A stretch of 64,000 bases of DNA. It comes from Mesoplasma melaleucae (GTDB taxonomy: Bacteria; Bacillota_I; Bacilli_A; Mycoplasmatales; Mycoplasmataceae). A program made the translations under genes and the position numbers. The notes under the pieces are model-generated. The model ran no database searches, had not been told where the DNA came from, and saw nothing but the letters and a program-made list of their open reading frames with translations. Location of the stretch: the NCBI RefSeq assembly GCF_002804105.1, contig NZ_CP024964.1, positions 496,001 through 560,000 of the forward strand. The letters are read 5' to 3'. This document shows positions 55,378 to 60,924 of this stretch, piece after piece (position 1 is the first letter of the stretch; the number at the start of each line of letters is the position of its first letter).

Positions 55378-55402
55378 TAATAAAAATGCCGAAGCATTTT
55401 TA
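55378..55402. terminator. Bidirectional hairpin terminator
   Basis: AAAAATGC, loop CGAA, GCATTTTT, flanked by T-rich sequence on both strands, between the dead RpiR gene and the ABC exporter pair. The rest of 55281-55405 holds no gene. Confidence 0.75.
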
Positions 55403-55405
55403 TTT

Positions 55406-56153
55406 TTATAAATTTGATAATATTTTTGTAAATAAATAATTTAATACAATTGATCTAATTGATAAGTAAATTTCCATATTTGTTTCTTGATGTAACACTA
55501 TTAAATTATCATTATCAATAAATTTATGAGTTTACGATGTTGATGTTACTACAAATATATTTCTTTTGCTTTTGAATGCTTGGTTATATAAACTAATCAG
55601 ATTTTGATTATCTAAGCATGAAGCAAAGAATAAGCATAAATAATTTGTTTCACTTTTATCAATTCAAATATCATGTAAGCGTCTTTGATTATTAAAACAA
55701 GATTCAATATTCATAAATTGTAGTTTACTAGCAAACAGTTCTACATTTTTATTTTGTTCATATGAAGAAAATATATAAACTTTACTTGCAGTTTTAATGG
55801 ATTCATCAATTTATTAATTTGTAAATCTTGTGAATCAATTTAATCTAAGTATTTGTTAATTAAATTTCTTATATTAGTTTTTTGATTTTTATTTTTAGTT
55901 TTTGATTTTTCGAATGGCTTATATAACTCTTGTTCAACTTTTATTCTGACAATAATTTTTCTAAAACCTTCATATCCATACTTTTTTGAAAAAGCTGTTT
56001 AGTCAGATTCAGATATAAAACATACTTCAGAACATTCTTTACTTGTTGGAATAATTCCTTTATCTAAACAATCAATTAAATATTTAGCAATCATTTTATT
56101 AGATGTTGTTTCATTGCTCTCATATATTGATTTAAGTTCTCTCTTATACTTTT
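55406..56153 (-). pseudogene. MurR/RpiR family sugar regulator, degraded
   Basis: The N-terminal helix-turn-helix is recognisable: NKMIAKYLIDCLDKGIIPTS, ECSEVCFISESD, then an in-frame TAA and TAFSKKYGYEGFRKI, the usual end of the RpiR HTH. The SIS sugar-phosphate domain is suggested by LDNQNLISLYNQAFKSKRNIFVV and IDNDNLIVLHQETNMEIYLSIRSIVLN. At least three stops interrupt it. RpiR proteins often control phospho-sugar genes, and a dead PTS gene and 6-phospho-beta-glucosidase lie 2.5 kb away. Confidence 0.7.
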
Positions 56154-56493
56154 AAACATTTTTTAACTCTAAAGTACTTCTTAAAAATATTAAATACTTA
56201 TAACTATTTTTTATATATACAAAAGTTAGTGCATTTTTTTATATAAAAATATTGTAGAAAAGGCAAATAAGATTGTGATATTTTGGATTAGCGTTTTTTA
56301 AATATCACAATACCTCACAGATAGTTAGATTAACCTAATTTCATTTAAGTATGAGATCAAAGCTTCTGGATTATTAAAAAGTTATGATTTAGTATATTAC
56401 TAAATTAGTCTTTTCTACTTATGATTGTAATACAAATAAGAGCTGCAGTTGCAGCTTTTTCTGTTATTTCATTAATTATTATAGATCATTTAG
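56154..56493. other. Gene-free stretch with two hairpins
   Basis: No protein of note on either strand. An inverted repeat TTGTGATATT/AATATCACAA spans 56273-56309 with a GC-poor loop of about 18 bases. AGCTGCA, GT, TGCAGCT followed by TTTTT at 56441-56463 has the shape of a plus-strand terminator, but no plus-strand gene remains upstream of it. Confidence 0.5.
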
Positions 56494-57206
56494 TTAAACT
56501 CAATTATTTGATAATTCTATTTTATTATTGCTTATACATAAATAAACGTTTTCTAAGTTAATGTTGTTTATATCACAAGCTTTCTTCATTAAAGATATAT
56601 TAGTTTTTTCATTAATTTCTTTTCTTGTTGCTCCACCTAAGTCAAAAAGAAAAATTGTGTTTGTATTTATTAATGATATTTTTTTGCTAAAAATGTCAAT
56701 TTGTTCTTTACTTAATAATTCTTTATATTGATTTTCTGAATTTTTGTTTACGTTGCTTTTTTTATCTAATTCGTCATATTGTACTTTAAATAATAAAGAA
56801 CAGCATTTTATTTCTAATTTTTTAGTATTTTCAAATTCTATTAAAAAAAATTAGGTGTTTTACATTTAAAAATTTTTAAAATTTTATAGCCTTCATAATA
56901 TTTTGGCATAATATGTTGAATATAATCTCTTAAAATATAAATTTGTTTTTCAAAATTTTTTAATGAATGTTCATGATTTTTGAAGCAAAATTCTCTTTGT
57001 TCAATATTATCTGAACAACAAATAAAATTACCTAAATAAGCATGAATGTCCATATCTTCGCTTTTTGAAAAAATTATGCCATAAATATCTTGACTTCTAT
57101 CTAATGTCGTATTATTTTTATCATAAATCAATACAGGACATTTTTCAGATTGCTTATTTAAATTTTCAATGAATTCTTTATTTATTTTATTTTTTATTTC
57201 TGTCAT
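56494..57206 (-). pseudogene. Gene split by a T8 run, partner of DUF2130
   Basis: The first part (56841-57206) encodes 121 residues, starting TEIKNKINKEFIENLNKQSE and ending CKTPNFF at TAA. The next 115 residues continue without any other lesion in the adjacent frame (LIEFENTKKLEIKCCSLLFK, FLFDLGGATRKEINEKTNI, NNKIELSNNWV, stop at 56494). The junction is a run of eight T. One extra T gives a single 237-residue protein. Its ATG follows the DUF2130 stop with no gap. Family unknown; mixed alpha/beta, several Cys, no membrane segment. It may be a recent pseudogene, a phase-variable gene or a sequencing error. Confidence 0.65.
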
Positions 57207-58511
57207 TTATTCTCCTTCTACAACCATTTCACCCAGTATTTTAGCAAGTCCCTTTTGAACTTTATTAAAGAACTGTTGGTTGATTACATTAATTGATTTT
57301 TTAATTCTTGATGAATTACGTTCTAAACTATCTGCAACTTTATCAAGATCTTCTAATTCCTTTTGCATTTTTTTATAAGCAATTGGAAATTGTGTAGTTC
57401 AATATTCATTCAATTCTTCTTTTTGTTTTTCTAATTCCTTCAATAATTCATTATTTGAATTATTTGTAAACGCTTTAGCTTTTTGATTATATTCAAATTC
57501 AAATTCCACTAATCTTCTTACAATTTGGCCAACAAATATAAAACTTTCTGAATCAGTAATTCATATATTTTCATATTCATCACTTCTAATAAATGGTAAT
57601 CCTGGATGCTTATCATTAAAGCTTGTTGCAATTAAAACTCCATATTTAGTTTTGTTATTTGCTACATCAGTTGAAAGTTTTGAAACTCATGCATTACTTC
57701 ATTCAGCATTTTTTACTTCATAAACAATTTTTCCAATTTCTTCTTTTTTATGATTTTTAATTATTTGCAAATAATCCGCTTTTCTTTCACCAGTAGTAAT
57801 TTTTTCAATTCCATCAAATAATGAGAATGCCTTAACTAAATCTTCATAAACTTCATGTTCAAAGTTTTCACCTTTACGTTTTGAGTTAATAATTTTGAAT
57901 TCACGGTTAGCTAAATTTAATTCAGCAATTCGCTTTTCATAATCTAGCTCTTTTGTCTTAAATTGTAATTCTTTATTATTATTCAAATTTTCAATTTCAA
58001 TTTTTTTCTTGTTTAATTCAAGTTTTAAATTATTGATTTCTTGATTAAAATAATTAGTTAAAACTTCTTTATTTTTTTCAACTTCAAGATTTAATTTTTC
58101 AGCTAATAATTTAATTTCAATTTCTTTATTAGACAACTTAATTTTTAAATCATTTTCAATATCATTAAATGTTTTTGATAAATCATTTTTTTCTTTATCA
58201 ATTTCTAATGCTTTTTGTTCATTTAATTTATTAATTAAATTATCTTTTTGACTTAATGAAATATTTAATACTTCAATCTCCTTGTTAAATTGATTAATCA
58301 TTTCTTGTTTAACAAGATTGATTTCAGTTGCTTGTTTTTCATTTAGTTGTTCAACTATTTCATTTCTTACCTGATTTCTAATTTTAATTTCTTGTTTTTG
58401 TTTTAATTCATTCAAATAATTTTCAACTAAAGTTCAGTTCGAATCATGATTTTTAAATGAGTCTTTAGTAATTTTTTGTCCACAATTTGGACAACTAAAA
58501 ATAATATCCAT
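57207..58511 (-). CDS. DUF2130 coiled-coil protein with nuclease-like C-terminal domain
   Basis: A 434-residue protein. A Zn-ribbon-like start, MDIIFSCPNCGQKITKDSFKNH, is followed by a long coiled coil (about residues 40-210, heptads rich in Leu, Lys, Glu and Asn). A folded domain then contains KGENFEHEVYEDLVKAF, ERKADYLQII (Asp about 246) and KIVYEVKNAEWSN (Glu265, Lys267), which fits a PD-(D/E)xK nuclease core, then KYGVLIATSFND. A second coil closes the protein. The layout matches DUF2130. Intact, upstream of the split gene in one unit. Role unknown; defence or DNA repair is speculative. Confidence 0.85.
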
Positions 58512-58702
58512 ACGAATATTCCTTTCTTTTTATGCAAATTTTAGTTATTTGAGAAATTAGAATAAACACTTGCTGTCACTCTTGTTCACTTTCTGTTAAT
58601 CTAAGGTTACTAACCTACTATTATTATACTCTTATTAGCTATTAAAAGATATACCTAGAACCAAAAAAATTTCACATTTTCATGCAGAATTTTTAAAGTA
58701 AT
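58512..58702 (-). promoter_or_regulatory. Upstream region of DUF2130 with small palindrome
   Basis: Minus strand GAGTATAATAAT holds a good -10 box (TATAAT) near 58630, and GGTTAGTAACC at about 58606-58616 is an 11-base palindrome just downstream, where an operator could sit. No clear -35 box. No gene in this interval. Confidence 0.4.
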
Positions 58703-60141
<1,439 letters not shown>

Positions 60142-60145
60142 GTTT

Positions 60146-60924
60146 AACATCTTTTAACATTCATTTTTTGTTTAATTTGTGATATATAACTATATTCATC
60201 AAACAAAATGTTATTTGTTCTTTCCTTAAAATATTTAACTTTTGAAAATACAAATGTCATTACCGATGATATTGAAAAACCTAAAGCAACACTTAATATA
60301 CCTCAAACAATTGATCCGTCAGCTCATTATCAACATTGATACCTTCTAGAGCTTTTGATGCGAAACCAATAATTCGAAGAATTCCAAATGGTGCTGCGTT
60401 TGTTCAAACACCAGCTGATGTATAAAGTAAAGAACCAAAATAAGCCCCAATTGCTGATCAATTAATAGATATAAATATTTAAGTGAAATTGAATAAATTG
60501 CTGGTTCTGTTACTTCTGCAAAAAATGCTGATATTCCATTTAAATACGCAGTATTTTTAACTTCTTTACAATGTTTGTTAATATATCCAAATGTTAAACA
60601 TCCAACAGGTAAACAAATATTTGAAATAATTAACAATGTCATTATAAATCTTTCGTTAAATTTCATAATATCTTGCATTAAGATTGGTCTAATTGTTCTG
60701 TGTAAGCCAAACACAACCATTGGTGCATAAAACATTTCAATTAATGGTGTAAAGATATATTTTGTTAAATGATGTGTCATTAAGAAGTTAAATCCAATTG
60801 ACATATAGTTTTTAATGATTAGACCAGCAGGAGCAATTGTAAAAATTGTTATAATAACTGTTCCTGCGGTCATAACCATTGGTTGAATAAGCAATCTAGC
60901 ACTGCCTAGTTTTATTTTGTTCAA
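60146..60924 (-). pseudogene. PTS sugar permease IIC domain, truncated
   Basis: A stretch of about 190 residues still reads: GTVIITIFTIAPAGLI, FYAPMVVFGLHRTIRPILMQD, CLPVGCLTFGYINKHCKEVKNTAYLNGISAFFAEVTEPAIYSISLKYLY. These match the beta-glucoside/trehalose-type IIC, including the TEPAIY motif. The frame then breaks near 60470, and the C-terminal part reads on in another frame as YFGSLLYTSAGVWTNAAPFGILRI. The IIB domain and N-terminal helices are missing. The upstream end abuts an unrelated membrane protein fragment. Confidence 0.75.

Follow-up and report, generated by a model that had tools for sequence, protein, structure and literature searches.

The window analysed here is a stretch of 64,000 nucleotides (positions 496001-560000 of the 845295-base genome of Mesoplasma melaleucae, read with translation table 4). 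It carries a gene for a DUF2130 protein, followed on the same strand by an orphan gene whose reading frame is broken at a run of eight T (Table 1). The genome of Entomoplasma (Mesoplasma) melaleucae, of 845 kb, contains 57 pseudogenes (PMC6117150). A sequence-only reading of the window had described the DUF2130 gene as intact amid such pseudogenes, and this is borne out. All 434 codons are open, and residues 186-422 match the Pfam family PF09903 (E 9e-49; 166.5 bits against a gathering cut-off of 26.7 bits). Decayed genes lie nearby, one each for a beta-glucosidase, a component of a PTS and a regulator of RpiR type. The decay of these three genes is multi-site (58700-60150, 60346-60924 and 55400-56200); M. 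grammopterae (L063) has all three intact, and M. florum (L062) has them partly intact.

The ATG of the orphan gene (57204-57206) abuts the DUF2130 TAA with zero gap. The claim that this gene is broken only once, at the eight T, with the remainder of its 237 residues open, likewise agrees with the analysis. Each half is open and coding-like in its own frame, scoring 0.15 and 0.18 bits per codon as against -0.28 to -0.56 in the other frames, and the chance of a 117-codon open frame is P ~4e-4. Both halves score lower than the native genes, which lie at 0.24-0.76 bits per codon. Since the two halves score alike, and in their own frames only, the break should be recent or tolerated. No other ORF of the window contains a T8 on its coding strand. 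Three further runs of 8 bases do lie within ORFs, all of them open, so runs of that length are tolerated. A search of 60 close relatives, 395 class genomes, phages, plasmids, viral contigs, Pfam, NCBIfam, PHROGs and PADLOC gave nothing reliable as a relative of the orphan.

Table 1. Features of the DUF2130 locus, in window positions; the occupant is the gene in the slot behind DUF2130
Feature	Position	Strand	Remarks
Hairpin terminator	56438..56459		Homologous to that directly after the DUF2130 stop in G002 and to that after the occupant in G006
Slot occupant, orphan gene of ~237 codons over two frames	56494..57206	-	Starts at the DUF2130 stop
Occupant, second open part, -1 frame	56494..56850	-	Stop at 56494-56496
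Occupant, first open part, 121 codons	56841..57206	-	TAA directly after T8
T8 run, coding strand	56843..56850	-	U UUU UUU, then UAA
RDYIQH, HEPN-type RDx3H motif, residues 93-98 of the orphan	56913..56930	-	Before the break; common to the G003, G006 and G282 proteins; a lead only
DUF2130 protein, 434 aa (table 4)	57207..58511	-	CxxC Zn-ribbon-like N-terminal start, long coiled coil, PD-(D/E)XK-like domain; the conserved gene that hosts the slot
AAGGAG, Shine-Dalgarno-like site	57212..57217	-	Within the final codons of DUF2130, shortly before the occupant ATG
Nuclease-like motif Asp246 ... Glu265-x-Lys267	57711..57776	-	Invariant across 26 relatives

DUF2130 as the conserved gene of the locus

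The DUF2130 protein had been called nuclease-like, and the part of this proposal that concerns the motif stands. Asp246, Glu265 and Lys267, together with Glu218, are invariant in 26 diverse sequences. D246, E265 and K267 correspond to the pattern of the PD-(D/E)XK superfamily, namely an acidic residue followed by E-x-K on a core sheet. The likeness to restriction enzymes of the AspBHI/MspJI type extends to the strands predicted around the motif and to the top PDB fold matches. The part that concerns the fold is less secure: restriction endonucleases come first among the matches to the predicted domain, but these are weak (best E 6e-3, TM <=0.2). A PDB fold search with the domain returned zero matches at E 0.001 or better, and a long coiled coil before the domain further sets DUF2130 apart from these enzymes. 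The protein is a putative nuclease; no published function for DUF2130 appears in the literature searched.

DUF2130 is syntenic in 7/7 members of the genus and present in 40 of the 60 relatives, and it is vertically inherited in the mollicutes studied, which are insect- and plant-associated. In three members of another family of the order (L132, L135 and L144), DUF2130 is followed by an overlapping DUF2779-type protein, a pairing that is stable and not exchanged.

Gene exchange at the DUF2130 stop codon

It is evident from comparison of the relatives that the gene starting at the DUF2130 stop differs in nearly every species. Sister genomes are 98% and 96% identical in DNA up to this point, and the identity ends within 5-15 bases of that stop. 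In the sister pair G003 and G004, where both flanks are comparable, DUF2130 is 99% identical and the DNA is 98% identical up to 5-8 nt before the stop. From there the two genomes carry unrelated genes (295 and 283 codons), and 98% identity is back at +870/+894, the end of those genes. Likewise, G016 and G033 share 96% identity across 4.65 kb, ending 15 bases before the DUF2130 stop, after which one genome continues with an AbiU/AIPR gene and the other with that of an HNH protein. In G014, G021 and G032, DUF2130 is homologous and the far flank is homologous from ~+2240, and three different genes lie between; the first place is held by a DUF4145 protein, an RloC/PrrC-like ATPase and an AbiH-like protein, respectively. 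Within DUF2130 itself, variation with the occupant is confined to the last few codons. Different content between homologous flanks, by which defence hotspots are recognised, is thus found at the DUF2130 slot.

The site is empty in G002, where the DUF2130 stop codon leads straight into a hairpin terminator. In G000 and G006 a terminator homologous to it stands after the occupant, which places the occupant inside the DUF2130 transcription unit. By sequence comparison, the space between the DUF2130 stop and the terminator is an exchange slot that takes complete cargo genes or small systems, presumably cotranscribed with DUF2130 and often translationally coupled to it. The exchange of cargo probably proceeds by homologous recombination through the conserved flanks. 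Given that the gene behind DUF2130 is exchanged from species to species, and that the partner in the window has no relative in 395 class genomes, the earlier notion of a conserved pair or two-gene module is unsupported. The pairing of DUF2130 with the orphan is a single state of such a slot rather than a switchable module.

Some downstream neighbours of DUF2130 are ordinary, such as a nitroreductase, an RNA methyltransferase and a P-type ATPase, and about half of 38 DUF2130 loci have no same-strand gene within 80 nt downstream. A Shine-Dalgarno site in the DUF2130 tail was considered as a general mark of occupied slots and given up, the difference being not significant (6/16 vs 6/22). In G002, a 121-aa ORF ends 2 nt upstream of the DUF2130 start (L059:7512-7877), so a second, upstream slot may exist.

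The frame break at the T8 run

The occupant in the window would have been thrown out of frame by a single indel at T8 of recent date. An ordinary slippage mutation in a gene en route to loss is the most likely cause. The sequence-only reading had taken the break as slipped-strand phase variation, with changes in run length toggling the partner within a population. A lone break at the window's only coding-strand T8 within an ORF, in a gene otherwise open and coding-like, would agree with such a switch, as would the A8/A9 or T8 runs in other slot genes. However, T8 is short, and in a synonymous-shuffle test that covered the slot genes, with the interrupted window gene left out of the set, T8 runs were at or below expectation (4 observed vs 5.35 expected) and there was no T9. 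Per kb, A8 and T8 runs are more frequent in slot genes than in neighbour genes, yet not more so than in the slot genes' own synonymous shuffles, the neighbours being depleted. The excess over control genes stems from selection against runs in the controls and from higher AT content. The homopolymers of slot genes read as those of AT-rich, recently acquired genes rather than as selected switches. With the orphan, moreover, having no relative in which run length could be compared, phase variation is very unlikely.

The gene might also remain in use through read-through, whereby transcriptional slippage at T8 or -1 ribosomal frameshifting on U UUU UUU would yield 121-residue and full-length products. 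Such slippage, transcriptional or translational, is possible because U UUU UUU precedes UAA and the -1 frame is open. The continuing frame is exactly -1, the slippery heptamer adjoins the stop, and there is a precedent in tssM of Citrobacter rodentium, which is rescued via an A11 tract (PMC4256274). T8 is, however, shorter than that tract, and the arrangement is kept in no relative. The downstream RNA structure is unremarkable (z -0.95), and a recoding structure after T8 was dismissed on this count; read-through is on the whole unlikely. A sequencing error in a gene that is really intact could be suspected as well, given that homopolymers are typical error sites and that the gene bears no other damage. 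Yet the M. melaleucae genome comes from Illumina reads of ~880x (PMC6117150), which seldom misread an 8-base run, and the decay in nearby genes is genuine and multi-site, which leaves an error highly improbable. An ordinary slippage mutation is the cause preferred here. As a separate observation, the native genes of these AT-rich genomes (L057-L064, L097-L149) are strongly depleted in coding-strand T runs of at least 7 relative to synonymous shuffles, and the slot genes are not.

Slot occupants and a probable defence-gene hotspot

The defence setting proposed for the locus gains support from what stands right behind DUF2130 in the relatives, where homologues of Hachiman, AbiU/AIPR, CBASS-type HNH and other defence genes are found. 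Searches with PADLOC and Pfam profiles identified HamB (E 3e-48) and PDC-S06/AAA_13 (E 3e-198) directly behind DUF2130. Other occupants are AbiU/AIPR (E 1e-36), a CBASS-type HNH effector (E 5e-14), a KAP NTPase and a Schlafen-type/Nhi-like helicase. In the slots of G023 and G282, HamB is accompanied by a HamA-like protein that has a DxnExK motif; the HamA assignment was made by eye. At L158 and L162, a macro/PARG protein and an AAA ATPase come after DUF2130. Across 43 genomes, 2/4 HamB matches and 1/2 AAA_13 matches lie behind DUF2130, these families having been chosen after being seen. Against local controls the contrast is softer: PADLOC matches at 1e-5 were obtained for 6/19 slot genes as against ~7-10/82 local control genes, the latter count being an estimate among the matches listed (Fisher 0.015-0.05). 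Membership of the AbiH family was rejected for the G032 and G410 occupants; their resemblance lies in motifs read by eye and the AbiH profile misses both, so they are named AbiH-like only. Since many occupants are known or candidate anti-phage genes, the slot would, judging by homology, work as a small defence-gene hotspot.

The present cargo of the window, the orphan of ~237 codons, may be a HEPN-type RNase, which is a fair guess from the motif and no more. The motif agrees with the HEPN pattern R[N/D/H]x3-5H, and RDx3H occurs in 0/215 control proteins, the motif having been chosen after being seen. The occupants of G003 and G006 are 43% identical and both contain RDx3H. A third member of their family, in G282, keeps it as RDLLAH and lies ~4.5 kb from a HamA/HamB pair, of which HamB is identified by its profile match and HamA by where it stands. 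Profile comparison of the orphan with this family gave a local alignment around the RDx3H stretch only, and the orphan has no match in Pfam. A single-sequence model of the HEPN-like occupant of M. grammopterae, at pLDDT 38, was too poor to use. As the orphan is without a database match, its putative defence role rests on its position and on a six-residue motif. The G282 island (L215:4881-12845) comprises the HEPN-like gene and the Hachiman-like pair, and a second HamB of that genome stands behind DUF2130 (L147).

Comparable arrangements are known. In the core defence hotspots cDHS1 and cDHS2 of Pseudomonas aeruginosa (PMC10250203) and in the P2/P4 hotspots (PMC9122126), as in the DUF2130 slot, the flanks are fixed, immune systems vary by strain and many occupants are of unknown kind. 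Those hotspots are, however, multi-gene and range from several to hundreds of kb, whereas the DUF2130 slot mostly takes one gene, in the same transcription unit as DUF2130. What the slot adds to the known hotspots is a position bounded by the stop codon of a nuclease-like gene and by that gene's terminator. The likeness to Hachiman (HamA/HamB) consists in the HamB-type helicase and the DxnExK HamA-like protein directly behind DUF2130 in G023 and G282; Hachiman, though, has its own nuclease, DUF2130 is an additional gene upstream, and other genes fill most slots. The modular operons of Lamassu and CBASS likewise join a conserved core protein to an exchangeable effector, and DUF2130 weakly matches LmuB (E 2e-6, coiled coil), but it is neither an SMC ATPase nor a nucleotide cyclase.

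Other readings of the locus have to be weighed against this background. DUF2130 and the slot gene could function together as a single immune module, in which effectors are exchanged beside a conserved nuclease or sensor, much as in Lamassu or CBASS. Occupant start codons that touch or overlap the DUF2130 stop at many loci, the invariant nuclease motif and the effector-like nature of many occupants would all suit such a module. Several occupants are, however, complete systems known to work alone (the Hachiman pair, AbiU, RloC/PrrC-like), and an occupant is absent from many DUF2130 loci, which makes the module possible yet rather unlikely. A bolder idea would have mollicutes and other bacteria share an undescribed modular immune system, with DUF2130 as its conserved nuclease or sensor. 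The effector of this system would be swapped behind the DUF2130 stop codon as one cotranscribed cassette, and the orphan would be a new HEPN-like effector of low output, or of output switchable via T8; this is quite improbable. Alternatively, neighbours may differ merely through high genome decay and gene turnover, the place behind DUF2130 being nothing special. The richness of this zone of the window in pseudogenes would fit, and tight spacing behind DUF2130 is just mildly enriched (13/38 vs 34/197, P 0.018). Yet in three genera the breakpoints fall at the stop of DUF2130, and homologous flanks persist around different occupants; turnover of this kind is distinctly unlikely as the explanation. 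Overall, the locus is probably an exchange slot and defence-gene hotspot inside the DUF2130 operon, which in the window holds a frame-broken, possibly HEPN-like cargo.

A one-gene slot with fixed flanks would allow candidate defence genes, the Mesoplasma orphans included, to be read directly from genomes whose immunity is poorly known, and it makes the role of DUF2130 testable. That the breakpoints lie at the stop codon points to a simple way in which recombination could swap immunity genes in minimal genomes. The DUF2130 slot could hence be considered a lead toward new defence genes, the broken gene of the window being its current occupant in one species. Beyond the mollicute genomes, Lactococcus lactis plasmid p275D (L209:5001-8871) carries, one after another, restriction-modification genes, DUF2130 and an ATPase of the TrlF family.
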